In this document: one piece after another, positions 321 to 18,830 of the stretch
Layout of the letters: every line of letters begins with the position of its first letter
Numbering within the stretch: the first letter of the stretch is position 1
From: Deltaproteobacteria bacterium
Lineage (GTDB): Bacteria; Desulfobacterota; DSM-4660; Desulfatiglandales; HGW-15
Length of the DNA: 59,254 bases
Reading direction: 5' to 3'
Assembly: GCA_016931115.1 (NCBI GenBank)
Contig: JAFGFM010000002.1
Span: forward strand, 1 to 59,254
Made by a program: the position numbers and the translations under genes
Notes under the pieces: generated by a model
Databases searched by the model: none
The model's input: the letters and a program-made list of their open reading frames with translations, nothing else
Told to the model about the DNA's origin: nothing

Positions 321-418
321 GCAAACTGCTCATTTACTGAACGATTGAAAACCGGGATCGCATCCTGGTTAAACGAATAACACAAAATGTCAGCAGGATT
401 TACCCTGTTAAATGCTGC

Positions 419-475
419 TAAGCAGCCACTATGTGGATTGAACAGGATAATATGTCGCCCCGCTGGGGCTGCTTA
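419..475. repeat. Inverted repeat with nested GC hairpin
   Basis: Arms taagcagcc (419-427) and ggctgctta (467-475) are perfect complements. Nested just inside the right arm, gcccc-gct-ggggc (457-469) forms its own short hairpin. It does not end in a T run, so it is a poor terminator candidate. Confidence 0.55.
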
Positions 476-525
476 AATGTGAATGATATGGTGCTATTAA
501 TATAACGCACCTACGGTGTTGGATT

Positions 526-553
526 TTAAATATGGCGAATTCGCCATATTTAA
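526..553. repeat. Perfect 28-bp palindrome
   Basis: The 14-base half ttaaatatggcgaa is followed directly by its reverse complement, with no spacer. As DNA this would suit a dimeric operator; as RNA the lack of a loop makes a stable hairpin less natural. No nearby regulator gene explains it. Confidence 0.7.
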
Positions 554-564
554 TGAAATAGAGA

Positions 565-600
565 TCGTACCTCAAAATATCAGTTGATTTATCTAGATGA
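565..600 (+). repeat. Short dispersed repeat, copy A (left half only)
   Basis: The sequence from tcgtac through tcaaaatatcagttga recurs with few changes at 2354-2375 (copy B), and its first six bases recur at 3887-3892 (copy C). The right half shared by copies B and C is not present here. Confidence 0.5.
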
Positions 601-639
601 AATGCAATTTAGATGTTTACAATATTGAGGGCAGGAATA

Positions 640-756
640 ATGAAAGAAAAAAACAACCGGTCCGAAATATTACTTTATAAAACAGATGACGGCCTGATAA
701 AGGTAGATAGTACTATGACCATTTTGGGAGATAATCGGCAATTTGATTTTTTATAA
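640..756 (+). pseudogene. RhuM-type N-terminal fragment
   Basis: A 38-codon frame starts at an ATG with a purine-rich stretch (gagggcagga) upstream. Residues 7-24, 'RSEILLYKTDDGLIKVDS', resemble the usual start of RhuM-type proteins (pattern S-E-I-x-x-Y-x-T-E-D-G). The frame then leaves the family and stops. This is therefore the start of a second RhuM-type gene, truncated after about 25 codons, lying downstream of the first gene's end. It could still be translated as a short peptide, but nothing suggests a function. Confidence 0.55.
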
Positions 757-781
757 AATAACATTTTAGTCGGTAAAGTAA

Positions 782-2329
782 ATGCCATTACCTATTAATA
801 TAAATACGTTGATAAATGGAAAGTCAGTTGAGTGGGAACGCCTTGAATTTAAAAAGGGGTGGAACCCTATTGATATCATCCATACAATATGCGCCTTTGC
901 CAATGATTTTCACAATTTCGGTGGTGGATATATCATACTTGGCATAGAAGAAAAAAATGGGCGGCCTATTCTTCCTCCCATCGGCATAGAACCGGATCTG
1001 ATTGACACCATTCAGAAGGAACTACTGAATCTCGGAAACACTGCCATTCAGCCTGCATATCACCCCATTGTTGAACCCTGCCAGTTTAAGAATCGTGACA
1101 TACTGGTCATATGGGCGCCAGGCGGACAGACCCGCCCTTATAAGGCTAAAATAGCTCTTGGAAAAAATAACAGGGAATACACATTTTTTATCCGCAAAGG
1201 CTCCAGCACAGTTCGGGCAAAAGGGCTTGATGAAATGGAACTCATCTCACTTACCGCAACCGTTCCATTTGATGACAGGTTGAATCAGCTTGCAGATATA
1301 AAAGAACTTTCAAAGGAACTCATGGTTGAGTTTTTAAAGGAGGTCGGAAGTGATCTTTCGTCACAGGCGGTAAAAATGCCCCTTGTTGAGTTGGGTCGAC
1401 AGATGCATATAATAGGCGGCCCAGATGAGGCACCTTTTCCTCTTAATGTTGGACTACTTTTTTTTAACCCCGAACCTTGTCGATTTTTCCCGGGCACACA
1501 GATTGATGTGGTCTGGTTCCCTGATGGCCCTGGAGGCGACAGGTTTACTTAAAAGACATTTAAAGGGCCTATCCCTTTAATAGTACGTGAGACCCTTGAT
1601 TATATCCGGCGTAATTATCTGAACGAAACTGTGATCAAACATCAGGACAGGGCTGAGGCTACACGCGTAACAAATTTTCCCTATGAGGCTATTGAAGAGG
1701 CGGTTGTTAATGCAATATATCACCGAAGCTATGAGGAGCGGGAACCAGTCGAGGTAAGGGTCTCTCCTCAGGAGATGATAATCCTCAGCTATCCGGGGCC
1801 AGACCGCTCTGTCCGCCTTGATCAGCTCCGAATAGGCCGTGCTATACCACGCCGTTACAGGAACCGTCGCATAGGTGAATTTTTAAAGGAGCTTGACCTT
1901 ACAGAAGGCAGGGCCACAGGCATCCCTAAAATACTTCGCTCAATGGAAGAAAACAATTCTCCGCCTCCTGAATTTGAATTTGATGAAGACCACAGCTATT
2001 TTCTGGTTCGGTTGCCGGCGCATCCGGATGTTCGCGAAGAGATTGGACAGGAAACTGTCAAAAAGACCCTACCAGTCACCCTACCAGTAATAAGACTACT
2101 GGAATACCTATATTCCAGAGGGGAGAAGGGCAGCGCTGAAATTAGGAGGGAATTCGGGCTTAAGGATCGTATTAATTTTCGAAGGCTTTACATTGATCCG
2201 GCCATGGATTCAGGGTTAATCGAATTTACAATCCCCCAAAAGCCCAACAGTCGTCTGCAAAGTTATCGGCTAACCGAAAAAGGTCGCAGCCTTCTGGCTT
2301 CAAGGTCTGTAAAGAAAAGCGTATCATGA
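782..2329 (+). pseudogene. AlbA_2/RecG-like DNA-binding ATPase-type protein, broken by in-frame TAA
   Basis: Two open stretches (782-1552 and 1553-2329) share one frame and are split by a single TAA at 1550-1552; the intervening codons stay in frame, so one substitution (for example GAA or CAA to TAA) explains it. Part one has the AlbA_2 (Schlafen-type) domain with 'ERLEFKKGWNP' near residue 18 and 'GGGYIILGIEE' near 53. Part two has a HATPase_c_4-like ATP-binding domain ('EAIEEAVVNAIYHR', 'EGRATGIPKI') and ends in a winged-helix-like region ('SAEIRREFGLKDRINFRRL'). Family members are often annotated as RecG-related helicases or transcriptional regulators. If translation restarted downstream, the domains could exist as two proteins, but no clear ribosome binding site is visible at 1631. 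Confidence 0.8.
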
Positions 2330-2353
2330 CTTATCACATTGTAAAAAGAGGTG

Positions 2354-2408
2354 TCGTACATCAAAATATCAATTGAGATGGATAAAAGCTAACAGGTTAA
2401 AAGGTCTT
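2354..2408 (+). repeat. Short dispersed repeat, copy B (both halves)
   Basis: The left half (2354-2375) matches copy A at 565-586. The right half (2379-2408) matches copy C at 3913-3942 in 29 of 30 positions. It lies between the AlbA_2 pseudogene and the Fic fragment. Confidence 0.65.
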
Positions 2409-2569
2409 CCTAAAACAGAATTACAGAACCCTTGATTTTAAGTTTGACCTTATTTTTGTGGACGGTGGTAATAACATGATAGACCATACGGGTTAGTGCA
2501 ATAAGCAGATTACGCAGGCAATGCCTGCCCAATCCTTCGTGAAACTTTTGATTTTCAGGAGCTAAATAA

Positions 2570-2680
2570 ATGAGCTTTGATTCGGAAAAACCATATAATG
2601 ATCTCCCCCTGTTGCCGCCAAAAGCAGAAATCGAGACCAGGGCTGTCCTCACGAAGGCCACTTTAGCATGCCTGACCCAG
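2570..2680 (+). pseudogene. Fic-family N-terminal fragment
   Basis: The frame opens with ATG preceded by caggagc. Its first ~33 residues include 'YNDLPLLPPKAEIETRAVL', the characteristic start of Fic-domain proteins of the Fic_N type (linker before the AMP-transferring Fic fold). After about residue 35 the similarity ends and the frame runs into unrelated sequence and the BRO gene; the HPFxxGNG catalytic motif of Fic is nowhere in this region. It is therefore a truncated relic. The end coordinate is approximate. Confidence 0.65.
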
Positions 2681-2787
2681 GTAATCGGAGATCAGAACAA
2701 ATTAAACTTCAACAAAAAGCCGGACTGTTTTAAAAAAGACACTATTTTTGAAGAATCAGAGTATCCCATGTTTAAATGGAGTTTAAA

Positions 2788-3622
2788 ATGGAACAAAACA
2801 AAATCGTTATCTCTGAAAGCAAAAAGATCAGGCGCATCTGGTACAATGAGGAATGGTTTTTTTCTGTGATTGATGTTGTAGAGGCTTTAACTGATTCTCC
2901 AACTCCCCGCCAATACTGGGGAAAAGTCAAGAAAAGGGCTTTTACAGACCTTCAGTTGTCCCCAATTTGGGTACAACTGAAATTGGATAGTGTGGATGGC
3001 AAAAAATATGCGACTGACTGTGCCAATACAAAGGCAATGTTCAGAATAATACAGTCTATCCCCTCTCCTAAAGCAGAACCTTTCAAGCAATGGCTTGCAC
3101 AGGTAGGCTATGATCGTATACAGGAAATTGAAAATCCTGAGCTTGCTCAGGAAAGAATGAAGGAGTTATATGAACTCAAAGGCTATCCTAAAGATTGGAT
3201 AGATAAAAGATTACGTGGGGTTGCAATCCGCCAGAACCTTACAGATGAATGGAAAGAACGAGGGATCGAAACTGAACGTGAGTATGCAATTTTAACTGCC
3301 GTGCGAGATTTCAAAGGCTACTTTTGGGGTGACACCTTCCGAATATAAAAAGCTGAAAGAACTAACAGGTGAAAACCAGAATCTGCGTGACCATATGACA
3401 GATCTGGAGCTTATATTCACTATGCTTGGAGAGAGGGTTACAACCGAGATTTCACAGAAGGAAAAGCCCGAAACATTTGTAAAAAGCAAAAAGGTCGCAA
3501 AACGTGGCGGGGGAGTAGCAGGTACTGCACGAAGAAAAACAGAAAAAGAACTGGGGAGAAGCGTTGTAACCAGTGATAATTTTCTCCCTCCTGGGAAAAA
3601 GAAATACCTGAAAGAAAATTAA
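2788..3622 (+). pseudogene. BRO-N domain (phage antirepressor-like) protein with frameshift
   Basis: The start at 2788 is preferred over the in-frame ATG at 2776 because ggag lies seven bases upstream. The first ~170 residues form a BRO-N-type domain ('RRIWYNEEWFFSVIDVVEAL', then 'WVQLKLDSVDGKKYATDC', 'FKQWLAQVGYDRIQEIENPE'). At about 3305 the frame fails: the original runs into a stop at 3346, while a +1 shift restores 'EISKATFGVTPSEYKKLKEL' and the normal tail ending near 3622. One extra base near 'gccgtgcgag' explains it. Full-length relatives in bacteria are common single-gene accessory proteins of unknown role. The region upstream holds a Fic fragment, so this is a decaying neighbourhood. 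Confidence 0.8.
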
Positions 3623-3640
3623 TTAAATTTCTTTCTATAT

Positions 3641-3830
3641 AATATGTCGATGTTGGCGACGTATTAATAAAACATGCCGGTATTTTAAGGCTTTATCGAC
3701 ATGTTGATTGTTTTTGCTTATAAAATCAACATTCGATATGCACTGATATTAATAAAATAAGTGCATATTTAAAAAACAAAACGTGTCCATAAAAAGGGAA
3801 AATATGGACACGTTTAAACAACATGTCGAT
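3641..3830. repeat. Array of consecutive hairpins bounded by 11-bp repeats
   Basis: Three hairpins follow one another: 3701-3709/3724-3732 (9 bp, atgttgatt arms), 3736-3744/3760-3768 (9 bp, atatgcact arms) and 3779-3791/3803-3815 (13 bp, around acgtgtccat). Overall spans are 32, 33 and 37 bases. The block is bounded by direct repeats aatatgtcgat (3641-3651) and aacatgtcgat (3820-3830), and the same 11-mer occurs inverted at 3695-3705. No open frame covers it. It lies between the BRO pseudogene and the uvrA terminus. Confidence 0.7.
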
Positions 3831-3886
3831 ACCATAGACACGTGCGTCAGCGCGACTATAAGCTAAGAAACATTGTGAAATAGTAG

Positions 3887-3942
3887 TCGTACCTTTTAAA
3901 CATTTATTGAACTGGATAAAAGCTGACAGGTTAAAAGGTCTT
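3887..3942 (+). repeat. Short dispersed repeat, copy C
   Basis: The tcgtac start (3887-3892) and the 30-base right half (3913-3942) match copy B at 2354-2408; the middle differs. It marks the right edge of the decayed patch, just before the uvrA stop codon. Confidence 0.65.
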
Positions 3943-3960
3943 ACCGTCTGTAAAGCTAAA

Positions 3961-6810
3961 TTATTTTTTACTCAGTATCTCCTTTAAGAACATTCCTGTA
4001 TGGCTCTTATCAACCTTTGCTACATCCTCCGGGGTGCCCTGAGCTATGATGTAACCACCCTCATCACCCCCTTCAGGGCCAAGGTCTATTACCCAGTCTG
4101 CTGTCTTTATCACATCAAGGTTATGCTCAATTACTATTATTGTATTGCCAGCATCCGTCAGTGTGTGGAGCACATCAAGCAGTTTCTGGATATCGGCAAA
4201 GTGGAGCCCTGTTGTGGGTTCATCAAGTATATATACAGTGTCTCCTGTTGCTACCCTCGCAAGTTCCCTTGCAAGCTTTACCCTCTGTGCCTCACCGCCG
4301 GATAGTGTCAGGGCGCTCTGCCCCAGTTTTACATACCCGAGCCCAACATCAGACAGGGTCTGTATGATCTTCCTGATATTCGGGATGTTTTCAAAAAACT
4401 TCAGGGCCTCATCAACATCCATGTCAAGGACATCCGCGATATTCTTTCCCTTGTAGTGTACCTGCAGGGTCTCCTTGTTGAACCTTGAACCCTTGCATAT
4501 ATTACATGTTACCCATACGTCTGCCAGAAAGTGCATCTCCACACGCTTTTTACCGTGTCCCTGGCATGACTCGCACCGCCCGCCCTTCACATTAAAACTG
4601 AAGCGGCCAGGCTGGTAGCCCCTTGCCCTTGAATCAGGCAACTGGGCAAAGAGGTCCCTTATAAGGTTCATGAGCTGTACATAGGTAGCAGGGTTTGAAC
4701 GGGGTGTGCGGCCTATGGGTGACTGGGTAATATTAATGATCTTGTTTACATGGTTCAGACCATTTATACGTTTGTGTTTGCCGGGTCTCTCATCCGAGTT
4801 GTGCAGCGCCCTTGAAAGGGCAGGGTAGAGGGTCTGGGCAACAAGAGATGATTTGCCGCTCCCTGAAACCCCTGTTACGCATGTAAACAGGCCAAGTGGA
4901 AACTTTGCAGTCAGCTTTTTCAGGTTGTTCTGTTCAGCATCTACAATTGTTATCCATTTGCCATTTGAAGGCCGCCTGTGAATATTTGGTGATGCCACCC
5001 TGAGTGTACCGTTCAGGTATTTTCCTGTAAGTGATTTTTTGTTTTTAATTATTTTTTTAAGTGGCCCCTCTGCAACCACCTCTCCGCCATTTACCCCTGC
5101 GCCGGGGCCGAGGTCAACGATCCAGTCGGCTGTCTGCATGGTCTCTTCATCATGTTCAACAACAAGCACTGTGTTGCCAAGGTCCCTTAAGCGAACCAGT
5201 GTATCAAGCAATCTTCTGTTGTCACGCTGATGGAGCCCGATTGACGGCTCATCAAGCACATAAAGCACACCCGAAAGGCCGCAGCCTATCTGGCTCGCAA
5301 GCCTTATGCGCTGGCCCTCGCCACCGGAGAGTGTTGATGCATGGCGGTCAAGGGTCAGGTAATGGAGACCTACATTAAGCAGAAACTGTAGCCTCTCGCC
5401 GATCTCCTTTAATACCTCTTCGGAGATCTCCTTTTCTTCCTGTGTCATTTTGGGGAGAAGATTTTTTATCCATGTGAATGATTCACCTATGGACATCTCT
5501 GTCACATCAATTATGTTTCTATCCCCCACTGTAACTGCGCATGCCTCAGGCCTGAGTCTTTTATTGTTACAGGTTGCACAGGGTTGTGTACTCATGAAGG
5601 ATGCGTACCACCTGCGGGTAAATTCCGATTTTGTCTGGTGGTATCTTCGGCGGATGGAGTTTACCTCACCCTCATGAATCCCCTTGTATTCACCGCTGCT
5701 TCGGGTATTGTCCCATTTCCATACAATATTTGCACCGCCATAAAGGATTGCATCCTGGCATTTTTTTGAGAGCTCTTTCCACTTTGTATCAAGATTATAG
5801 CCGAACTGCTCTATAATCTGTTTTGCTATCTTGTACCTGCCGCCGTGACCCTTTTTGGCTATCTCCCCCCAAGTGCGAACTGCCCCCTGGTTGATGGTCT
5901 TGTCAGGGTCATAAAAGAGTTCAGGGTCAACCTCAAGCCGTGTCCCAAGGCCATTACACTCCGGGCACATGCCGATTGGTGAGTTAAAACTGAACATGGC
6001 AGGGGTAAGCCTTGGGAAACTCATGCCGCAGTCCACGCACGAGTTGAGTTCAGATAAAAGCCACTCATCACCGTCACCCTTATCTACAACAATGAGCCCG
6101 TCACCTGCCTTCAGGGCCGTTTCAACTGAATCTGTAAGTCTTGTGGTAAATGAATCCTTTTCTTCATTTTCACCCGGCACAACCAGTCTATCCACCACGA
6201 GCTCAATATTATGTTTTTTGTTCTTGTCCAGGCTGATATCATCATCGAGTGACCTTGTTTCGCCATTTACGCGCACCCTGGTAAAGCCTTCTGACCTTGC
6301 GTTAATAAATGTGTCCTTGAATGTGCCCTTGCGGTTACGGGCAAGGGGGGCGAGTATCTGCAACCTGGTTTCAGGAGCAAGTTCTGCCACCTGTTCCACT
6401 ATCTCCTGTGCTGACTGTGCCTGCACTCTTTTGCCGCACTTAGGGCAGTGGGGTATGCCTATGCCTGAATAAAGCACACGGAGATAATCATATATCTCTG
6501 TCACGGTCGCCACGGTTGACCTGGGGTTTTTGCTTACAGCCTTCTGCTCAATGGCAATAGCAGGGCTTAAGCCCCCAATATAATCCACCTTTGGTTTTTC
6601 GGTCTGGTCTATAAACTGGCGGGCATAGGATGAGAGAGATTCCACATAGCGCCTCTGCCCCTCTGCATAAATGGTATCAAAGGCAAGGCTCGATTTGCCG
6701 CTCCCTGAAACACCTGTGATAACAACCAGTTTGAACCTTGGGATCTTTACGTCTATATTTTTTAGGTTGTGCTCCCTGGCACCCTTGACAATGATATCTT
6801 CTAAAAACAT
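3961..6810 (-). CDS. uvrA: UvrABC excinuclease subunit A
   Basis: UvrA scans DNA for bulky lesions as a dimer and hands them to UvrB in nucleotide excision repair. The 949-residue length is typical. Visible elements in order: first Walker A 'GVSGSGKSS' near residue 33, a CPKC zinc-ligand pair near 120, the CVDC/CPEC pairs near 260-285, the first ABC signature '[12 protein letters not shown]', the second Walker A 'GVSGSGKSS' near 645, the zinc module 'CESCQGHG...CNIC' near 750, the second signature '[12 protein letters not shown]', and '[16 protein letters not shown]'. It is monocistronic as far as visible, with uvrB absent. No intrinsic terminator is obvious after the stop. Confidence 0.97.
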
Positions 6811-7021
6811 AATAATTACCGTCTGTTATGAGAATGAATAATATGAAACCGCAACACATTATACCGATATAAAAATATGGTAAAGCTAATACATTATGAA
6901 AATGCTTTCAACTGTAAGTCCGAAAAAAAGTAAAATAATACTCCGGGTAAGTGATAAAGCCTCAAAGGTATAAGTTGTAGAAATAATAATGGAATTCTAA
7001 AATAGAGAAAAAATTAAAAAA

Positions 7022-8323
7022 TTATAAGGAGCTGTCCAGTAAATACTTCCAGGCTGGAATGATCTCGATCGTTTTATCACCATCTTTCCAAATATCTTCT
7101 TCATTCAGGGTTATTATTTTTCCGATTTTCAGATCAAGCTCTTGCATTGCCTGAAGAATGGATGATATCTCACGGTTTCTGGTCTTGGGATTTTCCATCG
7201 TCAGAGATACCTGGACAAGATTTTTATTATTTTCTTTGTCTATCCACAAAAAATCAACCTCATATCTGCCCCTGGTGCGGTAATAATATATCTCATCTGA
7301 AATTCGTCTGAGATGTATAAAAATCATATTTTCAAGCTGCTGACCTTTGTTGCCTGTAATTTTTGGCGAAACCGCTCCAGCCATGCTGTGATCGATGCAA
7401 TATACCTTTTTTGCATTTGCATTTTGTTTTGATATAGAAGGGCTGAATATAGGCACTGAAAAAAGAAAATATGCATCTTCAAACCATGCAATACAATTGG
7501 ATACAAAATCTTTGCTGATTTTATAACCAAGTGATTTGAGGTATTCTGAAATCCTGTTAATCGAATATAGAGAAGATATAGAACTTATCAAACGATACCC
7601 TGCCTGGACAACTGCCTGTGGATGCAGGGCGTCAAACCGGTTTATAATATCACGATGCAGGATTGTTTGAAAATATTCCTGAAGAATCATAACTCGTAAT
7701 TTATCATTTACATTCTTAACTTCAGGGAAGCCTCCCTTTATAAAATATTCGTTAAAGGCTTTTTCAATCAGTAATCTGTTTTTTGATGTGAGAGTATTAT
7801 GTTTGATATTTTTGTAATCTAGAAATTCCTTGAATGAAAAGGGGAAAAGCTCCCATGAAAGAGATCTCCCCCGCATCTGGTCAGATATTTCTTTTGACAA
7901 CATCTTTGATGAAGAGCCTGAAATGAATACGTAGCAATTTTCTGTTCTTAGAATACGGTCAATAAAAGATTCCCAGTTCCGGGCCTCCTGTATCTCGTCA
8001 AAAAAACAATAGATAGTTTCATTTCCCTTTTTTTCAGGGTAAAGCGAATAATAGGCTTCAAGTATCAAAGACATATTTCCATTGCAGATATCATTTAACC
8101 GGTCATCAAACAGATTAAGAAATAAAATGTTTTCTTTTGAAACACCTTTTGATTTTAAGGAATCGATAATCTGGTATAAAAGTGTGGATTTGCCGCAGCG
8201 CCTTACACCCATACATACAAAGGCTTTGCCATTTATGTATTCGTATTCAAGATGCCTCTTTAATCCTGTGTCAGGTGTATCTTCTTGAAAATCGAGGATC
8301 ATTTCTTTTAAAGTTTCAAGCAT
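7022..8323 (-). CDS. AAA_14/DUF4143-type ATPase
   Basis: The 433-residue protein belongs to the large family of predicted ATPases with an AAA_14 N-terminal domain and a DUF4143 C-terminal domain. Walker A is 'GVRRCGKST' at residues 39-47, Walker B is 'IYCFFDEIQ' near 104-112, and a sensor-like 'VFISGSSSKML' follows. The C-terminal part has the nuclease-like 'YYRTRGRYEVDFLW' with D and the following QVS motif typical of DUF4143. Its cellular role is not established; members are often single accessory genes. Upstream (8382-8437) three CCGATTT-type motifs, one inverted, could be an operator. It has no operon partner. Confidence 0.85.
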   Translation of the reverse strand: MLETLKEMILDFQEDTPDTGLKRHLEYEYINGKAFVCMGVRRCGKSTLLYQIIDSLKSKGVSKENILFLNLFDDRLNDICNGNMSLILEAYYSLYPEKKGNETIYCFFDEIQEARNWESFIDRILRTENCYVFISGSSSKMLSKEISDQMRGRSLSWELFPFSFKEFLDYKNIKHNTLTSKNRLLIEKAFNEYFIKGGFPEVKNVNDKLRVMILQEYFQTILHRDIINRFDALHPQAVVQAGYRLISSISSLYSINRISEYLKSLGYKISKDFVSNCIAWFEDAYFLFSVPIFSPSISKQNANAKKVYCIDHSMAGAVSPKITGNKGQQLENMIFIHLRRISDEIYYYRTRGRYEVDFLWIDKENNKNLVQVSLTMENPKTRNREISSILQAMQELDLKIGKIITLNEEDIWKDGDKTIEIIPAWKYLLDSSL

Positions 8324-9861: not shown

Positions 9862-10686
9862 ATGGACTTCATAGAAATAGACAAGAATAAATGCAATCAG
9901 GATGGCCTCTGTGTTACTGTGTGCCCGTCAAGGCTTTTTGAATATCAAAAAGATATCCCCCCTACTACTGTAAAGGATATAGAGTCTATGTGCATCAGGT
10001 GCGGGCACTGTGTGGCTGTATGCCCTACAGGAGCCCTCAAACACAGGAGCCTCGACATCCACAGGTTTGAGACTGTTGAAGAGGAATTCAGGCTTTCAAC
10101 AGAGCAGTGCGATGCCTTTTTCAAGGGGAGGCGCTCAATAAGGGCATACAAGGACAAACCTGTTTCACAGGAAAAGATAGCAAGGCTTATCGATATTGCC
10201 CGCTATTCACCCACAGCGCGTAACTCACAGGGTGTAAGGTGGCTTGCTGTTACCGACAGGGCAGAGATAAAGAGATATTCAGGGCTTGTAATCGACTTTT
10301 TCAGGGTGGTCTTGAATGAAGGTGTGCCAGGTATTAACCCCAACCCCCACTTAAGTAAACTCATTTCTGATTATGATGCTGGGACAGATGTTATTTTAAG
10401 GGAGGCACCTGCCCTTATCATTACCTATGGTGATAAAGAAAACCGCCTTGCTCAGAATGACTGTGTTATTGCGCTTGCAAACCTTGAGCTTATTACCTCA
10501 GCCCTTGGAATGGGTGGCTGCTGGGCAGGCTTTTTCATGACCGCTGCGGCTAATTATGAGCCCCTTAAAGAGGCGCTCGCACTTCCTGAAAGGCAACAGG
10601 CTTTCGGGGCGCTCATGATCGGTTATCCGAGGTTCAGGTACCAGCTGATACCCATAAGAAAAGAACCTAAGATTATCTGGAGGTAG
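9862..10686 (+). CDS. Nitroreductase family protein with N-terminal 2[4Fe-4S] ferredoxin domain
   Basis: The 274-residue protein starts with 'CNQDGLCVTVCPSRLF' and 'CIRCGHCVAVCPTGAL' (residues ~11-65), two clusters of ferredoxin type. From ~residue 85 a nitroreductase fold follows: 'FFKGRRSIRAYKDKPV' (FMN-phosphate contact), 'DIARYSPTARNSQGVRW', and 'ALGMGGCWAGFF' near the C-terminus. Proteins of this layout are common in anaerobes and reduce nitro compounds or other electron acceptors with FMN; the natural substrate is not known. It lies in the same orientation as the PNPOx-ferredoxin gene, 151 bases downstream. Confidence 0.88.
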   Translation: MDFIEIDKNKCNQDGLCVTVCPSRLFEYQKDIPPTTVKDIESMCIRCGHCVAVCPTGALKHRSLDIHRFETVEEEFRLSTEQCDAFFKGRRSIRAYKDKPVSQEKIARLIDIARYSPTARNSQGVRWLAVTDRAEIKRYSGLVIDFFRVVLNEGVPGINPNPHLSKLISDYDAGTDVILREAPALIITYGDKENRLAQNDCVIALANLELITSALGMGGCWAGFFMTAAANYEPLKEALALPERQQAFGALMIGYPRFRYQLIPIRKEPKIIWR

Positions 10687-10730
10687 CAGTTAACCTTGAA
10701 TCTTGAATGTTGAACATTGTATAAAAGGTG

Positions 10731-10794
10731 TATGGTTTGAGGCATGAGGTGTACGGCTTTTCCCTCTTTTCTCAGACCGCACACCCCAGACCAT
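10731..10794. terminator. Imperfect inverted repeat between convergent genes
   Basis: tatggtttg... at 10731 and the arm ending in ccata at 10794 pair imperfectly across about 20 positions. It sits between the stop of the nitroreductase gene and the stop of the convergent secreted-protein gene, where a bidirectional terminator would be expected. No clean T run is present, so the role is uncertain. Confidence 0.35.
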
Positions 10795-10830
10795 ATAATA
10801 TGAAGCATGTTATCAATATATGATTTGTTA

Positions 10831-11223
10831 CTATTTAAAAGACTCGCAATCGGAAAACCATTCTTCAATACGATATCGTTTTGTGCTGTAGAATATTCGG
10901 CTGCTAAGCGTAAAGGCCTCATCTCCGCTCGATGTACTAATGGTGGTTTCCTGTATGTCTGAACCGTCTGAACCTTCAGGTATAACAGCTCTAACTTCTT
11001 TACATCCTATGGGTTTGTCATTTACAAGAATTTTAAATGCTATACTGACATTTGGAAAATCGAAATTTTTTCTGCTTATAACGCCATATTTTATAACTAC
11101 CTCTTTTTCACTTATACGTTTTACATCAGTAATTACCAATTCAAGATCACTAGCATAAGATGGAAACTGAAATAAAAAGACAAATAAAAAACACATAGCA
11201 ATAATTATTTTTATCTTAAACAT
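10831..11223 (-). CDS. Small secreted protein of unknown function
   Basis: The 130-residue product opens with a classic signal peptide: lysines at 3 and 5, a hydrophobic core to about residue 20 and a 'SYASD' cleavage region near 22-25. The mature ~105 residues look like one beta-rich domain ('DLELVITDVKRISEKEVVIKY', 'VSIAFKILVNDKPIGC') with two cysteines (near 74 and 126) that could form a disulfide. The layout resembles small immunoglobulin-like periplasmic proteins, but I recognise no family. aaggag lies seven bases upstream of the ATG. It stands alone. Confidence 0.65.
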   Translation of the reverse strand: MFKIKIIIAMCFLFVFLFQFPSYASDLELVITDVKRISEKEVVIKYGVISRKNFDFPNVSIAFKILVNDKPIGCKEVRAVIPEGSDGSDIQETTISTSSGDEAFTLSSRIFYSTKRYRIEEWFSDCESFK

Positions 11224-11335
11224 TTTGAATCTCCTTATGGTTTTAAGATCTCATGTAAATCAAAAAAATAATCTGTCGGGTAGTGGTGTAATTTATATTA
11301 ATTTTATTATAGTTACTCCTTGTACCTTTTACCGG

Positions 11336-11515
11336 TTATTCATGGTTTTTGCAACTTTCTCTTTTTTTATAAAAGAAAGATGGGTAATATACCGGAAGCT
11401 CCATGATAAAGGATGAAAAAAGCCTGCCCGCCACAGGGGCATCAATCCTTTCCATCACATCCGCACCCGTGCCCATAGACCACATAATAGAAATGAGCCT
11501 CATTAAAGTTTCCAT
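11336..11515 (-). CDS. Possible small protein (59 aa)
   Basis: A 59-codon frame starts at ATG (11515-11513) with a perfect AGGAGG upstream, but at a rather long distance of about 11 bases. The peptide begins 'METLMRLISIMWSMGTGADV' and has no recognisable domain or signal. No homologue comes to mind. The strong Shine-Dalgarno match is the only support, and chance is a real alternative. Confidence 0.3.
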   Translation of the reverse strand: METLMRLISIMWSMGTGADVMERIDAPVAGRLFSSFIMELPVYYPSFFYKKRESCKNHE

Positions 11516-11860
11516 GACCCTTCAGCCTCCTGTTATGGCACACCCTTTGGAATATCTCTTGGAAATGCTATTTTATGCTGGTTATTTATCCATACACGGT
11601 AAAAATAATTTAAAAAATGTGCATAAAAATATTCATAAATTTTAATATTTTTGTCTTATTTTGCCGATCTAAGTAGTTGTAAACAGGAAATTATTTTCGG
11701 GCATTTTAAGATAATCTCGTAACCTATTGAAATGACATGTTATAAATTTATTTTTTATTTGAATGAAAAAAGATAAAAATTGGCATAAAAATTGAATAAA
11801 AAAGATTGCCGTGCCGATAATAAATTTTATCAGGTATTATTCATTAAAGGAGTAAAGAGA
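11516..11860. other. AT-rich non-coding stretch
   Basis: No convincing gene, RNA or repeat is visible. A tggcataaaaattgaa string near 11780 vaguely resembles a sigma-54 promoter but lacks the GC of the -12 element. Confidence 0.5.
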
Positions 11861-12076
11861 ATGTTTCGATTAAGAAGGAGAGAAGTGAAAAGGAATGTCA
11901 GGCGGGAAATCAGTGTGCTCAAGGAAAAACTCAGGAGTGTTGAGTTGACACCCTGCTATGGAGATGCCGATCTAAGGAAAAAGGACAATGATCTGTCTAT
12001 GATATGGACAGAAATTTATAACCTTCGAAAAGAGATAGATGATTTTGCGTCCCCTTTTTTGCAGGCAGTTAAGTAG
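11861..12076 (+). CDS. Small coiled-coil-like hypothetical protein
   Basis: A 71-residue charged protein. The start at 11861 is chosen because aaaggag lies nine bases upstream; a TTG 69 bases earlier in the same frame has no ribosome binding site. The N-terminal half is very basic ('RLRRREVKRNVRREISVLKEK') and predicted to be helical, with heptad-like spacing of V/I/L, then 'NLRKEIDDF' near the end. I recognise no family. It could be a small structural or nucleic-acid-binding protein; its role is unknown. Confidence 0.5.
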   Translation: MFRLRRREVKRNVRREISVLKEKLRSVELTPCYGDADLRKKDNDLSMIWTEIYNLRKEIDDFASPFLQAVK

Positions 12077-12185
12077 CATACCCAGGTTTTAAAATCCATC
12101 CTGATTCCAAAGGCTTTTAATCAACAGGGTTGTTCAAGGGCTGTAGACTGCTCACAGGATAACCATATTCCGGACTTGCCCTGCC

Positions 12186-12214
12186 TTGACATTCATTTCA
12201 CTGATGCTTAGTAA
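12186..12214 (+). promoter_or_regulatory. Sigma-70-type promoter for lon
   Basis: TTGACA (12186-12191) and TAGTAA (12209-12214) are separated by 17 bases, about 105 bases upstream of the lon start. The -35 is perfect. No clear heat-shock (sigma-32) element is seen. Confidence 0.5.
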
Positions 12215-12321
12215 TAGACCATAGTTATTTGGTAATTCCTGTAGTTTGCAGTTTAATATATTCCTGTTTAGTCATCTCTTTTGAATCTGAGCAGGTTCAT
12301 GATAGAGTGGAGGGTGAAATT

Positions 12322-14817
12322 ATGAGTGATTCTAATATGATAATTACGGATGAAAGATCTGAGCTTCTGAATGATTTACCGGAAGAGCTCCCGATTCTTC
12401 CATTAAGAAATATGATTGTTTTTCCACATACAATAATACACCTTCCTATAGGTGTGCCGAGATCAGAGCGCCTTATTAAGGATGCCATAAAGGGTAACAG
12501 GCTGATAGGGCTTATCACATCAAAAACGCCTGATATTGAGGAGCCAAGCCCCGAGCAGCTTTATGATGTGGGCACCATAGCTTCAATTACCAGGGTCTTC
12601 CAGTCGCCGGACAACTCAATAAATATCATTGTTCAGGGCCTGGAAAGGTTCAGGGTTAAGAGCTGGTCAAGCTCATACCCATATCTGACAGCTAAAATAG
12701 CTGAAGCCCCGGATCATTATGAAGAGGGGGTTGAATTTGAGGCAATGGTGCACAGCCTCAGGGACCTGGCCAAAGAGGTAGTCAGGATGTCGCCAAGCTT
12801 CCCGGAAAATGCGGCAAGCTTTATTGATCAGATAGAAGACCCAAGATACCTCACCTATATGACTGCTGCGAATCATGGTCTTGGCATTGAAGAGGCACAG
12901 GCCCTATTAGAGTCTGATGATCTGAAGGAAAAGATCAGGATGCTGATAGCCCATCTGACCCATCAGAAAGAGATCCTGATGCTTGACAACAAGATAAAAA
13001 ACGAGGCCAAGGAGACACTGGACAAGGCCCATAAGGAATATTTTTTAAGGCAGCAGATGAAGGCCATACAGAAGGAGCTGGGTGAGTCTGATGAAAACCA
13101 GTCAGGTACAGATGTTGAGGAGTATGAACGCAAGTTCAAGGAGGCAAACCTTCCTGAAGAGGCAGAAAAGGAGGCAAGGCGTGAACTGAAACGTCTGGCA
13201 GGCATGTCTCCCCACTCGGCAGAGCACCCGGTTATCAAGACATATCTTGACTGGATAGTTGATCTCCCGTGGAGCAAACTTTCTGAAGACCAGCTTGATA
13301 TTGAACATGCAAGGGCGATCCTTGATGAGGATCATTATGACCTTCAGGATGTAAAAGACAGGCTGATAGAGTACCTTGCCGTGAGAAAACTTGTACATGA
13401 CAGGGGTATCCAGTCTGATCCCGCGTCAGATGGCAAGGAGGGCGAGGCACAGGGTGCCATCTTATGTTTCGCAGGCCCCCCGGGTGTGGGTAAGACAAGC
13501 CTGGGTAAGAGCATCGCGAGGGCCCTTGGCAGAAAGTTTACCAGGATGAGCCTTGGCGGGATGAGGGATGAGGCTGAGATACGCGGACACCGCAGGACAT
13601 ACATAGGGGCTATGCCAGGCAGGATCATACAGGCCATAAAGAGGGCAGGCACAAGGAACCCCATCTTTATGCTTGATGAGATAGATAAGATCGGCTCTGA
13701 CTGGAGGGGTGATCCAAGCAGCGCACTGTTAGAGGTGCTTGACCCGGCGCAGAACCATGCATTCAGGGATCATTACCTTGATGTGGATTTTGACCTGAGT
13801 GATGTGATCTTTATCACAACAGCTAACCAGCTTGATACCATTCCTCCGGCCCTTAGAGACAGGATGGAGATCATACAGCTTGAAGGCTATACAGAGCATG
13901 AGAAGGTTAAGATAGCACAGGGTTATCTTGTGCCAAGGCAGATAAGGGTAAATGGAGTGCGCAATGATGAGGTCATGTTCAGGGAAGATGCCCTTAAAAA
14001 GATTATCGAGGACTATACCCGTGAGGCAGGCGTGCGCAGCCTTGAGAGACAGATCGGCACTGTATGCAGGAAGATCGCTGTAAGGATTGCGGCCAGCCAG
14101 CTTACAACCATTGAGGTGACCCCTGAGATAGTAAGGGAGTATCTTAAAAAGGAAAAATTTGAGTCTGAGATGTCCGAATCTATCGAGATACCTGGTATTG
14201 CCACAGGGCTTGCTGTAACTGCAACAGGAGGAGATATCCTCTTTATCGAAGCAACAAGGATGAAGGGGAGCGGTCATCTGCGCCTGACAGGTCAGCTCGG
14301 TGATGTGATGAAGGAGAGCGCAGAGATAGCCTTCAGCTATGTAAAGGCCAAGACAGAGGAGTGGGATCTGCCAAAGGATATTGCCAAGAAGGAGGATTTC
14401 CATATCCATGTGCCTGCTGGCGCCATACCAAAGGATGGCCCATCAGCGGGTATCGCAATGGTAATGGCAATGACGAGCCTTTTTACCGGAAGGCCGATCA
14501 GGAGCAAGATCGGTATGACAGGCGAGGTGACCTTAAGAGGACGTGTGCTACCTGTTGGCGGCATTAAGATGAAGGTACTCGCTGCTCATCGCGCAGGGCT
14601 TAAGACAGTTATTCTGCCAAAGAAAAATGAGGCAGACCTGGATGAACTGCCGGATGAGGTAAAAAATGACATAAAATTTATCCTTGTGGAAAGGATAGAG
14701 GAGGCGCTTAATGCGGCAATAAAGCCCTCTGAAAAAACCGACAAGGGTAAACCCAGGATGGAATGGTTTTATGACAGACATACCCCTCCGCCTGTAACTA
14801 CAGTAGAAAAGGTTTAA
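12322..14817 (+). CDS. lon: ATP-dependent protease Lon (LonA type)
   Basis: Lon degrades misfolded and regulatory proteins as a cytoplasmic hexamer. The frame extends upstream, but the start at 12322 has gtggaggg seven bases before it and gives the usual 831 residues. The N-terminal substrate domain begins 'LPILPLRNMIVFPHTIIHL'. Walker A 'GPPGVGKTSLGKS' is near residue 385 and Walker B 'FMLDEIDKIG' follows. The protease domain has 'KDGPSAGIAM' with the catalytic serine near 707 and 'VGGIKMKVLAAHRAG' with the catalytic lysine near 750. A good terminator follows. It is monocistronic with its own promoter. Confidence 0.97.
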   Translation: MSDSNMIITDERSELLNDLPEELPILPLRNMIVFPHTIIHLPIGVPRSERLIKDAIKGNRLIGLITSKTPDIEEPSPEQLYDVGTIASITRVFQSPDNSINIIVQGLERFRVKSWSSSYPYLTAKIAEAPDHYEEGVEFEAMVHSLRDLAKEVVRMSPSFPENAASFIDQIEDPRYLTYMTAANHGLGIEEAQALLESDDLKEKIRMLIAHLTHQKEILMLDNKIKNEAKETLDKAHKEYFLRQQMKAIQKELGESDENQSGTDVEEYERKFKEANLPEEAEKEARRELKRLAGMSPHSAEHPVIKTYLDWIVDLPWSKLSEDQLDIEHARAILDEDHYDLQDVKDRLIEYLAVRKLVHDRGIQSDPASDGKEGEAQGAILCFAGPPGVGKTSLGKSIARALGRKFTRMSLGGMRDEAEIRGHRRTYIGAMPGRIIQAIKRAGTRNPIFMLDEIDKIGSDWRGDPSSALLEVLDPAQNHAFRDHYLDVDFDLSDVIFITTANQLDTIPPALRDRMEIIQLEGYTEHEKVKIAQGYLVPRQIRVNGVRNDEVMFREDALKKIIEDYTREAGVRSLERQIGTVCRKIAVRIAASQLTTIEVTPEIVREYLKKEKFESEMSESIEIPGIATGLAVTATGGDILFIEATRMKGSGHLRLTGQLGDVMKESAEIAFSYVKAKTEEWDLPKDIAKKEDFHIHVPAGAIPKDGPSAGIAMVMAMTSLFTGRPIRSKIGMTGEVTLRGRVLPVGGIKMKVLAAHRAGLKTVILPKKNEADLDELPDEVKNDIKFILVERIEEALNAAIKPSEKTDKGKPRMEWFYDRHTPPPVTTVEKV

Positions 14818-14820
14818 AAC

Positions 14821-14852
14821 AAAAACGCCCTGAGCCTTCAGGGCGTTTTTTG
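14821..14852. terminator. Bidirectional intrinsic terminator after lon
   Basis: The arms acgccctga and tcagggcgt form a GC-rich stem with a gcct loop, followed by a T run on the plus strand and preceded by an A run that serves the minus strand. It separates lon from the convergent zinc-ribbon gene. Confidence 0.9.
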
Positions 14853-14861
14853 TTTTTGGAG

Positions 14862-15095
14862 TTAAGCCTCTATCTCCGCACCGCAATCCTCACACCGGTA
14901 TGTATCAGCGTTGCCCTTTTTTTCTTCAACCTTTTCAAAAACCCTTCTTTTGACCCTGTCATTCTCCCAGCATTCAGGGCAGAAGTCTGTATCCAGCTCT
15001 TCCCTGTTTATGGTCAGATGGCAATGGGTGCATCTCACCTTGTTTTTATTTTCTTTTACAAGCACAAGATGCTGATGTCTGCATGAGTCTAACAT
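14862..15095 (-). CDS. Small zinc-ribbon protein
   Basis: The 77-residue protein has three metal-site pairs: 'CTHCHLTI' near 22, 'CPECW' near 39 and 'CEDCGAEIEA' at the C-terminus, plus an N-terminal 'CRHQH'. This fits two small zinc ribbons. Such proteins can be adaptors or nucleic-acid binders. It lies 12 bases downstream of the TraB-like gene and is co-directional with it and the AAA ATPase, so it is probably the third gene of that operon. Confidence 0.7.
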   Translation of the reverse strand: MLDSCRHQHLVLVKENKNKVRCTHCHLTINREELDTDFCPECWENDRVKRRVFEKVEEKKGNADTYRCEDCGAEIEA

Positions 15096-15106
15096 TAGTG
15101 CTAACC

Positions 15107-16927
15107 TTATAAATACTGTGGTGCGTAACCACGCACATGGTGTCCGTCCAGCACATGAAACATCCTTATTTTTTTAATGGTCGCTGGCGGTATGGTGCCT
15201 ATCGGGATATAGATTATATTTTTTCCGTATCTTTCTGCGACACCTCTGCACCAGCCGGATGGCGGCTCAGGTGCTACATAAACCACATGTTTTTCAAGGC
15301 AGTAGTCAATGGCAGCCATTAACAGCCTTTCAGGCTTATTCCTGGCCCCGCTGAAAAAGCTGTCTTTCCAGATATCATAGACCCTCATGGGTGGGTAACT
15401 TAGCATAAACCCGCCATATTGACACCTTGCTATACCAGGCCCGTCCATTACCTCTCCTGCCGGTGTGCTATAGAAAGCCATGTCTGACTCCTGGCTATGT
15501 TCACCGAGCCACGTGACCTTCCAGGGGAATTCCTCCGGCCCATCTTTATCGATATCCGGGTCAAATATCACAACCACAGAGCCCACCTTGCCCCTTAAGG
15601 GGCGGTTTTCCTTGACGTATATCTTATCCTTACCCATGTTTCGTATGGTTTCACGAAGATCAAGTCCGTCCAGCATGGAGCACTCAAAGGGCACAACGCG
15701 GGAGTTTTCCTCTGACCTGATCTCTATTGCCCTTTTTTTAAGGTGATGCCCGTAGCCCTCTATCACAATATCCTCTGGCGGGTATGAACATATGTAGTCA
15801 CCTTTGAATCTATCCTTCCATTCCCCCTTTTTATTTTCCCTTTTTCTTCTTTTTACAGGTACAGAGATAAGCCTTTTACGTGTGCCTTTAATCCTCCTGT
15901 GAAGCTTGATCCTTCGGTGGTTAAGAAACAGGTCATCACCTGAGAGTTCAATAACAGGTATCCCCGGGTCACTCGTCTGCCAGGGGTAGTCACTCCCGAG
16001 GTTCCACACCTCCCACGCAAAGTTGTCATCAGCAACACCCCTTGCTGCAACAATTAGCTGATAAAAATCAGGCACCAGGTTTCCGGTGATCATGGCGTAG
16101 TTCCTGGCAAATTTGTTGAGTATATCCATCTGCACAGGGGAAAGCTCCTCTTTGTCATTTTTCCAGAGCTCCTTTTTGGCCTCCTCAATAAGCAGGTTAT
16201 TGAGCTTCATCCTGTCAGGCGGGGTATCTGTTTTCCCTGACCTGTAGTGTTCATAAGCGGCAGACTGGTAGGGCATCTCAGAGAGTATCTCTCTGCTTGA
16301 ATCCGCATGTATGTGGGATAATCCAACACCGGTTCTTTTTCTTATGCCTATTACCTCGGTCTGGGGCATATCGATCATCCTTAATAGCCTGGGGATGTGG
16401 AAGATACCGCCAACAAAGAGGGTCTTTAAACCGGTATTATTAAGCCTTTGAAGGTGATAGGCCATTGTCTTTTCGCGTAAGATATCCTCTCTGCTGCCCT
16501 CAATTTTATCATGTTTGCGAATATACTCGGTGCAGTACTGAAAATGACCTATCCGTGTAATGGCATATGCATCAGGCAGGGGGGTGTAATCAACAGGGTA
16601 ATCTTCAGTGTCACGGTCAATAAAGTGGACAGGTATGTCTGATTCAAGCGAGAGCCTCACCGCCTCAACCAGTGCATCTGCTGGCTCAAGGAGCAGGTAT
16701 GTGAATACGCCATCTGATTCCTCATAATGGACAGCAGATAAAAGGGGGAGCCTTTTTATCCCCTGTATGATCCTGTCTGTGAGTGTGGATGGGTATTCAA
16801 CAGCTATCTGATCAGGCTGATACTCCTTGAACTGCCTCGCTACCTCAAGGGCAAACTCCATCTTTCCGTGAACAATGGGAACAAAGCGGATATTGTTCCA
16901 TTGAAGACAATTATTCTTCATCTTCAA
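15107..16927 (-). CDS. TraB/ChaN-like domain protein of unknown function, partner of a MoxR-type ATPase
   Basis: The 606-residue protein begins with a segment that looks like the TraB/PrgY/ChaN fold: 'FVPIVHGKMEFALEVARQF' near residue 15, 'PDQIAVEYPSTL' near 40, and 'TLFVGGIFHIPRLLRM' near 175, which corresponds to the GxxH element of that fold. The remaining ~400 residues are not familiar; a basic stretch (RRIKLHRRIKGTRKR) lies near 345-360. No signal peptide or membrane segment is visible. It starts inside the end of the AAA gene (17-base overlap), so the two are translationally coupled. The usual MoxR partner, a von Willebrand A protein, is not in this locus. I cannot assign an activity. 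DUF5682-type proteins, which also neighbour MoxR genes, are the nearest comparison I can offer. Confidence 0.55.
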   Translation of the reverse strand: MKMKNNCLQWNNIRFVPIVHGKMEFALEVARQFKEYQPDQIAVEYPSTLTDRIIQGIKRLPLLSAVHYEESDGVFTYLLLEPADALVEAVRLSLESDIPVHFIDRDTEDYPVDYTPLPDAYAITRIGHFQYCTEYIRKHDKIEGSREDILREKTMAYHLQRLNNTGLKTLFVGGIFHIPRLLRMIDMPQTEVIGIRKRTGVGLSHIHADSSREILSEMPYQSAAYEHYRSGKTDTPPDRMKLNNLLIEEAKKELWKNDKEELSPVQMDILNKFARNYAMITGNLVPDFYQLIVAARGVADDNFAWEVWNLGSDYPWQTSDPGIPVIELSGDDLFLNHRRIKLHRRIKGTRKRLISVPVKRRKRENKKGEWKDRFKGDYICSYPPEDIVIEGYGHHLKKRAIEIRSEENSRVVPFECSMLDGLDLRETIRNMGKDKIYVKENRPLRGKVGSVVVIFDPDIDKDGPEEFPWKVTWLGEHSQESDMAFYSTPAGEVMDGPGIARCQYGGFMLSYPPMRVYDIWKDSFFSGARNKPERLLMAAIDYCLEKHVVYVAPEPPSGWCRGVAERYGKNIIYIPIGTIPPATIKKIRMFHVLDGHHVRGYAPQYL

Positions 16928-17780
16928 TTTCCATCATCTCATTAAAATACTCTGATGCAGCAGGGTCAAGGATCATGCCTGCTGATTCACGCAAATAGTC
17001 AAGGGGTGATAAATCGGCCTTCCCATGTTTAAGGGTACTGTCCGCAGATATCCTTTTCAGGGCATACCTGGCAATGTTAATGCCGTCCCTTACGCTGTAG
17101 CGGTCGTTTGCAGCATGGGCAGCCTGAAGAAACTCCACAACATATTCAAGGATTTCATCATCGGCAAAGGGCAGGTTTTTTTTCAGGATCAACAGTTCAT
17201 CATCACGATCCGGGAAGTCCAGCACAATACCAGGCTGAAGCCTTGAGTATATATAATCAGGCAAATCAAAGGTGCTGGCATCATCATTCATTGTGACGCA
17301 CATGCGAAAATCAGGGTGTGCCTTGATCTTTATGCCCGCCACAATAGACTCCACATACCTGCGGTTATCCATCAGGGGTGCAAGCGATGCCCAGCTCTTT
17401 TCGCTCATCCTGTTTCCTTCATCTATAACAGCAACCCCTCCCTCAATCATGGCGGTAACAATTGAACTTGCAACATACTGTATCTTACCCTTTTCCGATA
17501 TAACCGGGGTGATTATCAGGTCTTCAGGCCTTGTATCCATGGTTGCCTGAAAAAGATAGACCGGTTTGTTCATGAGTTTTCCTGCATGATATGCAAGGGT
17601 TGTTTTACCTACACCCGGTTTTCCTAAAAGCCTCGGGTTAAGCGGCAGATCATCCTCTCCAAGTACAAGCCATGCGGCAAGCAGTTGTGTTACAAGCTCC
17701 TCCTGCCCGACCCAGGTTAGCGGCATCTCTACGGGCCGGGAAAGGGCAATTTCTATATCATCAATAACAACCTTATCCAT
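16911..17780 (-). CDS. MoxR-type AAA+ ATPase
   Basis: The 289-residue protein has Walker A 'GKPGVGKTT' at residues 53-61, Walker B 'GGVAVIDEGNRMS' near 113-125, a sensor-1 'VTMNDDAST' near 160 and the C-terminal 'DRYSVRDGINIARYAL' sensor-2 region. The length and motif spacing fit the MoxR/AAA_5 group, which act as chaperones that remodel or load metal into partner proteins. It is the first gene of the minus-strand set with the TraB-like and zinc-ribbon genes, so those are its likely clients. The start lies 93 bases from the divergent CDF gene. Confidence 0.85.
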   Translation of the reverse strand: MDKVVIDDIEIALSRPVEMPLTWVGQEELVTQLLAAWLVLGEDDLPLNPRLLGKPGVGKTTLAYHAGKLMNKPVYLFQATMDTRPEDLIITPVISEKGKIQYVASSIVTAMIEGGVAVIDEGNRMSEKSWASLAPLMDNRRYVESIVAGIKIKAHPDFRMCVTMNDDASTFDLPDYIYSRLQPGIVLDFPDRDDELLILKKNLPFADDEILEYVVEFLQAAHAANDRYSVRDGINIARYALKRISADSTLKHGKADLSPLDYLRESAGMILDPAASEYFNEMMEIEDEE

Positions 17781-17873: not shown

Positions 17874-18830
17874 GTGCCCCTGGATCATGAACATAATGAG
17901 GGAGCCCATGACCACAAAGGGCATAACCATAGCCATGCCCTGAAATATACCCTCTATTCAAGGCTGTGGTGGGCCTTTTTAATAAATCTTGTCTTCCTTG
18001 TGGTTGAGGTTATTGGTGGCCTTTTAGTCAATTCGCTTGCCCTTCTGGCAGATGCCGGGCACATGCTTACTGATGTGGGGGCTCTGGCACTTGCCATCTT
18101 TGTGGCTCATCTTGCAAAAAGGGCTGCAACACCCAATAGAACCTTTGGCTTTTTAAGGGCTGAGGTGCTGGGCGCTTTTATTAATGGCGCAACACTTGTA
18201 CTTATTGTTGGCTTTATTTTCTATAAGGCATGGCAGAGAATCGGGGTGGCCCGGGAGATAGACGGGCCTGTTATGATGGTTATCGCCCTGCTTGGCCTTA
18301 TCGCAAATATTGCAAGCGCTGTAATACTTGCAAAGGGAAATGAGAAAAATGTGAACGTTAGGGGCGCATTCCTTCATATGATTGCCGATGCCCTTGGTTC
18401 AGTGGGCGCAATATTGGCGGGCATTATTATAATAACCACGGGCTGGCAGCCTGCTGATACGATAGCGAGCATTGTGATCGGTCTCTTAATACTGTGGAGC
18501 AGCGTTGGCTTTATTAAGCAGACCATTAATATCCTGCTTGAGGCAACCCCTGAAAATATTGACTATCTGGAGGTAAAAAGAGCCCTTGAAGAGATGGAAC
18601 ATATAGCGGCTGTTCATGACCTTCACATATGGACAATAACCTCTGGAATGCCGGTATTATCCGCCCATATAAGGCTTGCATCATGCTGTACAGGCACAAA
18701 CCACTGGCAAAAGTGTATTAATGATGCCAACAGGCTTTTAAGGGAAAGGTTTGGTATTAAACATACCACACTGCAGGTTGAACCTTATGATGGGGTATGT
18801 ACCCAGGAATGCCAGGCGAATTGTAAATAG
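17874..18830 (+). CDS. Cation diffusion facilitator (zinc-type) exporter
   Basis: CDF transporters export Zn2+ or related divalent cations by proton antiport across the cytoplasmic membrane. The 318-residue protein uses GTG with aaggag upstream. It has a histidine-rich N-terminal tail ('HEHNEGAHDHKGHNHSH'), six predicted membrane helices, the metal-site motifs 'LADAGHMLTDVGAL' (TM2) and 'HMIADALGSVGA' (TM5), and the C-terminal ferredoxin-like domain with 'VHDLHIWTITSGM'. HxxxD in both TM2 and TM5 matches ZitB/CzcD-type zinc transporters. The C-terminal cysteines (CCTGTN and CTQECQANC) are an extra possible metal site. It is alone on the plus strand. Confidence 0.9.
   Translation: MPLDHEHNEGAHDHKGHNHSHALKYTLYSRLWWAFLINLVFLVVEVIGGLLVNSLALLADAGHMLTDVGALALAIFVAHLAKRAATPNRTFGFLRAEVLGAFINGATLVLIVGFIFYKAWQRIGVAREIDGPVMMVIALLGLIANIASAVILAKGNEKNVNVRGAFLHMIADALGSVGAILAGIIIITTGWQPADTIASIVIGLLILWSSVGFIKQTINILLEATPENIDYLEVKRALEEMEHIAAVHDLHIWTITSGMPVLSAHIRLASCCTGTNHWQKCINDANRLLRERFGIKHTTLQVEPYDGVCTQECQANCK

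Follow-up and report, generated by a model that had tools for sequence, protein, structure and literature searches.

A conserved gene pair of a MoxR-class AAA_5 ATPase and a multidomain partner protein in Desulfobacterota

The window analyzed here is a 59,254-nucleotide stretch (contig JAFGFM010000002.1, assembly GCA_016931115.1) from a Deltaproteobacteria bacterium of the phylum Desulfobacterota. ORF calls in the window gave three minus-strand genes encoding proteins of 289, 606, and 77 aa (Table 1). The start codon of the 606-aa gene was TTG at 16927 or ATG at 16921, which gives an overlap with the ATPase gene of 17 nt or 11 nt, respectively. The terminator-like hairpin was reported on the plus strand, and its other side is A-rich too. 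A cation-efflux (CDF) transporter gene lies at 17874-18830, divergent from the ATPase gene and its partner, and the same arrangement was seen in the congener G208.

Table 1. Features of the ATPase/partner locus, in window coordinates.
Feature	Position	Strand	Basis
AAA_5 (MoxR/CbbQ/NorQ-like) ATPase, 289 aa	16911..17780	-	Pfam match and motifs
606-aa partner protein	15107..16927	-	open frame and homologues in phylum and order
Predicted N-terminal EreA/ChaN/TraB-like domain of partner, ~residues 1-190	16358..16927	-	AlphaFold model and VIA-align
Middle helical segment of partner, ~residues 237-312	15992..16219	-	hhalign to DUF5682; weak fold matches
C-terminal alpha/beta domain of partner, ~residues 378-606	15110..15796	-	conservation and structure model
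77-aa zinc-ribbon protein, 11 nt downstream of the 606-aa gene	14862..15095	-	ORF
Intrinsic-terminator-like hairpin, 13 pairs	14821..14850	.	between convergent lon-like gene and ATPase/partner unit

The 289-aa protein was identified as an AAA_5 ATPase by Pfam (66.4 bits against a cut-off of 22), as the original prediction of a MoxR-type ATPase had proposed. In a sequence search, the closest solved sequences were midasin AAA modules, CbbQ, and NorQ, the last two being the closest bacterial ATPases with solved structures. The Walker A motif GKPGVGKT (K59), the Walker B residues DE (D120, E121), and each of sensor-1 N165, R180, and R231 were kept in 106 of 106 relatives. The motifs were named by position, and R180 is likely the arginine finger and R231 sensor 2. 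The AAA_5 domain and the Walker A, Walker B, sensor, and arginine-finger residues place the protein in the MoxR-class AAA_5 ATPases. An assignment to GvpN was not supported (40.2 bits against an NCBIfam cut-off of 266.8).

The N-terminal domain of the partner was compared with solved structures using an AlphaFold model. The best VIA-align match was 7w5z_E (Z 10.2, rmsd 4.6, 164 aligned), and further Z values were 8.3 for HopBA1, 7.9 for ChaN, 7.1 for the C-terminal region of PMT, 6.9 for EreC, and 6.2 for the bacterial toxin domain 6a8j. The nine top-ranked chains included HopBA1, ChaN, PMT (three entries), EreC (two entries), and 6a8j, and a MARTX effector domain was also among the best solved matches. 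Foldseek alone returned no match for this domain with E < 0.001. ChaN, EreC, HopBA1, the PMT region, and the MARTX effector domain belong to what we take to be one EreA/ChaN/TraB-like (Tiki) superfamily. The modelled domain thus has the EreA/ChaN/TraB fold, in agreement with the TraB/ChaN-like N-terminus suggested earlier. It also shares the His/Glu/His set of that superfamily; however, the superfamily covers only one of the three partner regions, and the C-terminal domain has no match there. The site-like residues were H20, E44, D104, and G174-x-x-H177, among which H20, E44, and H177 were present in 39-41 of 43 members. Site residues were altered in several members, at least three of which were changed at more than one position. 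From these residues, the domain is a candidate metal-binding or hydrolase module. The EreA/ChaN-like superfamily also contains hydrolase effectors, and for this reason the domain could be the main output of the pair.

The middle segment of the partner gave weak AAA-lid/MCM-like helical matches (Z 4-4.7). The C-terminal domain was the most conserved part, with a mean pairwise identity of 59% compared to 41% for the N-terminal domain. Its structure model reached a pLDDT of 82.9 and a pTM of 0.78, with low confidence at residues 41-70 of the domain model. Against PDB structures, no match was obtained at E 0.001 and the best Z was 3.2. The domain also had no PDB sequence match, no Pfam family, no convincing viral structure match, and no phage-genome match. 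Structure prediction of the 606-residue protein therefore placed the N-terminal domain but matched the C-terminal domain to no solved structure, and the roughly 400 unfamiliar residues of the original prediction were narrowed to about 230 at the C-terminus. Invariant residues in this domain were D458, E480-S481-D482, and H591, and E533 was near-invariant. A cryptic VWA domain, which the beta-alpha-beta ending had suggested, was supported neither by hhalign (probability 0.6% against a 5-sequence VWA_CoxE alignment) nor by fold searches, as no VWA was among the PDB structures listed for the domain.

Comparison with DUF5682, which had been proposed as a check, indicated that the partner is a distant relative of this family. 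An hhalign run against nine DUF5682 proteins gave a probability of 97.7% and an E value of 1.9e-12 over residues 11-408 (columns 13-410 against 3-470). The alignment stops at residue 408, and the C-terminal halves were unaligned. The window partner scored 9.3 bits against the DUF5682 model (PF18934), below the Pfam cut-off of 26 bits. Some relatives passed the cut-off over the first 79-89 model positions, and 22 of 43 members matched at E 0.1. Matches of the model in 198 genomes of the phylum were all short and N-terminal, and all fell in members of the partner family. On these alignments, the N-terminal and middle regions of the partner are homologous to DUF5682 (E. coli YehM).

Homologues of the partner were found in 66 of 395 sampled phylum genomes, and the ATPase was found at E 1e-20 in 65 of 390. 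Comparing the two lists by eye, both genes were present in 64 genomes of the phylum sample (~390). The two partner-only genomes, G360 and G392, contained fragments of the partner gene without the ATPase (G360:C76:3547-4220 and G392:C179:14086-14337, the latter with an in-frame stop). In G354, which was ATPase-only in the first search, a 738-aa partner directly adjoins the ATPase; it fits the family profile across nearly its whole length and had been missed because it was too divergent. In nearly all loci inspected, the two genes shared a strand, with the partner 3' of the ATPase. Seven checked genomes had no adjacent ATPase, and all seven encoded it elsewhere. Two relatives without the partner, G033 and G293, were also without the ATPase. 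Distance matrices of the two proteins were correlated at r = 0.915, with none of 999 permutations as high, a value to which shared vertical descent also contributes. The partner was carried by 71 of the 85 genomes in the order of the window, or by 28 of 30 when only good genomes are counted, and nearly all carriers had a single copy. The pair is conserved well beyond chance, and the coupling of ATPase and partner that was first proposed is supported. The sequences show an intact MoxR/CbbQ-class ATPase that is passed on together with a single obligate partner. It is well supported that the ATPase and its partner form one functional unit, and the pair behaves like a housekeeping part of the chromosome and unlike a mobile defence cassette.

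When 84,980 species genomes were scanned with a pattern, at least 563 confirmed stretches were obtained; because a single gene can account for two of them, the figure does not count genes. Carriers included Thermodesulfatator, Desulfobacca, Omnitrophota records, and plasmid pS13 of Neochlamydia sp. S13 (L031), on which the pair lies at 10127-13830 downstream of a TtcA-family gene. At another locus (L061, 6052-10308), a divergent pair of a 317-aa ATPase and a 782-aa partner stands between a 927-aa ORF on its upstream side, in which a P-loop-like motif was recognized by eye, and a TPR protein on its downstream side. A gene fusion at L064 was rejected, as the coordinates imply different reading frames for the two genes.

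The prevailing view is that MoxR-class ATPases act together with VWA partners. No VWA gene was found near the pair at about 120 copies, so the VWA gene beside the ATPase that marks a MoxR-VWA pair was absent at the family loci, as the original prediction had observed for the window. A VWA_CoxE model, trained on five VWA proteins encoded at DUF5682 loci, matched none of 6176 ORFs of the family loci at E 1 and matched 7 of 7 DUF5682 control loci. Five of these control loci supplied the training sequences, which leaves L180 and L187 as independent controls. When 143 neighbour ORFs were scanned with Pfam, there was no VWA family among the 25 commonest, no recurrent neighbour, and no Pfam family common to more than 5 members. 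Rubisco and nitric oxide reductase genes were not recurrent beside the pair. The pair could still act with a VWA protein whose gene lies in another part of the genome.

The zinc-ribbon protein did not follow the pair. Of the 85 genomes of the order, 7 had a homologue, and the gene was seen next to the pair only in G000 and G208, within the genus. The three ORFs first proposed as a set are real and two of them form a conserved pair, but the zinc ribbon was rejected as a third component; it is probably a local addition outside the conserved module. A flagellar link was considered for one thermophile genus, in which the pair closely precedes sigma-54 regulators, a TPR protein, and FlgB/FlgC/FliE-like genes (L044, 7097-15228; L045 is similar by clustering). 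It was rejected, as flagellar genes were not recurrent neighbours elsewhere. Viral carriage was likewise rejected, given the lack of a phage-genome match for the C-terminal domain and two IMG/VR contigs that are best read as host flank. On one of these contigs (L195), the pair lies beside a tyrosine-recombinase-like ORF (3429-4583) and a minus-strand portal-like ORF (6237-8216); from the ORFs alone, regions 368-4583 and 6237-8216 were read as host flank of an integrated phage. PADLOC gave no match above noise, and PHROGs gave none for the partner.

The general kind, in which an AAA_5 ATPase has a distant DUF5682 relative as partner, is already known. No description of either the two-gene form without VWA or the conserved C-terminal domain was found in the literature searched, in keeping with the earlier view that this is not a described system. 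DUF5682 itself was not mentioned in that literature, which misses most subscription papers. The pair resembles CbbQ-CbbO and NorQ-NorD in joining an ATPase with a dedicated partner. CbbO and NorD carry VWA domains, whereas the partner described here is not recognizable as a VWA protein.

A chaperone or remodelling role, as initially suggested, is plausible because it fits the AAA family. We tentatively favor, at a little under an even chance, a two-protein AAA+ remodelling machine of a ring ATPase and an adaptor that docks through its C-terminal domain, with the N-terminal pocket delivered or gated. The ATPase would form a ring, as assumed for the MoxR/CbbQ class, and by analogy with its family would spend ATP on remodelling or activating a client. 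The partner would serve as a dedicated adaptor whose C-terminal domain docks to the ATPase, to the client, or to both. This domain may do the job of the VWA proteins in CbbQ-CbbO and NorQ-NorD, a guess that is consistent with its conservation and with the absence of VWA genes nearby. The N-terminal EreA/ChaN/TraB-like pocket would be a metal-site or hydrolase module that the ATPase delivers or gates, and a few lineages may dispense with it.

The high conservation of the C-terminal domain could be due to an enzyme active site and not to docking. An independent enzyme in this domain, which the ATPase would only switch on or off, is a serious rival, although we consider it unlikely. The invariant residues D458, E480-S481-D482, and H591, the near-invariant E533, and weak fold matches including RNase H domains, Argonaute, and HypF are in its favor. 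However, these fold matches are at the level of common arrangements, and part of the domain model is of low confidence. Descent from an AAA-DUF5682-VWA(-SWIM/DUF5691/DUF4132) set with loss of the VWA gene appears rather improbable. In E. coli and on plasmids, annotated DUF5682 genes are likewise preceded by an AAA ATPase gene, and close by are VWA genes, often together with SWIM, DUF5691, or DUF4132 genes. In E. coli yehL-yehM-yehP-yehQ (AAA_5-DUF5682-VWA(-SWIM)), the AAA_5 gene directly precedes the DUF5682-type gene, an order identical to that of the pair, and the hhalign match over residues 11-408 also points to such descent. Unlike the pair, the yeh set has VWA_CoxE and SWIM genes, and its DUF5682 C-terminal half was not aligned with the partner. 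The YehL-type and pair ATPases form distant groups, split by a very long branch with 100/100 support. Moreover, no VWA-bearing intermediate was found, as all DUF5682 matches in the phylum were short N-terminal ones in partner-family members.

Defence and metal-insertion roles are less likely. A conflict module, in which the N-terminal domain is a toxic hydrolase that the ATPase restrains or sets free upon threat, is decidedly improbable. MoxR-VWA ternary systems have been proposed as conflict systems (eLife 2020, PMC7159879) and likewise combine a MoxR-class ATPase with a partner, but the pair has no VWA and no variable effectors were seen. The effector and toxin domains in the N-domain superfamily (HopBA1, PMT, MARTX effector) and the copy on the Neochlamydia plasmid agree with this role. 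Against it, the pair is near-universal and single-copy in the order, PADLOC gave no match above noise and the neighbourhoods no recurrent defence genes, the C-terminal domain had no phage-genome match, and N-domain site residues are lost in lineages retaining the pair. A maturation or metal-insertion factor for an anaerobic energy metalloenzyme, with the zinc ribbon as carrier in the genus of the window, is very improbable: it is consistent with CbbQ and NorQ as the nearest solved bacterial relatives and with the ChaN-like fold, but no metalloenzyme neighbour recurs and the zinc ribbon is not conserved.

Returning to the remodelling machine, it is possible, at somewhat less than even confidence, that the C-terminal domain is an undescribed AAA_5 co-chaperone/effector domain replacing VWA, and that the pair represents a housekeeping AAA+ machine, likewise undescribed, of Desulfobacterota-type anaerobes, Omnitrophota, and a chlamydial plasmid. 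A widespread, largely vertical pair with an unclassified partner would show another way of giving MoxR-class ATPases a client. The conserved C-terminal domain lends itself clearly to structural and knock-out studies, and the pair would also be relevant to the DUF5682 proteins, which are unstudied and include E. coli YehM.
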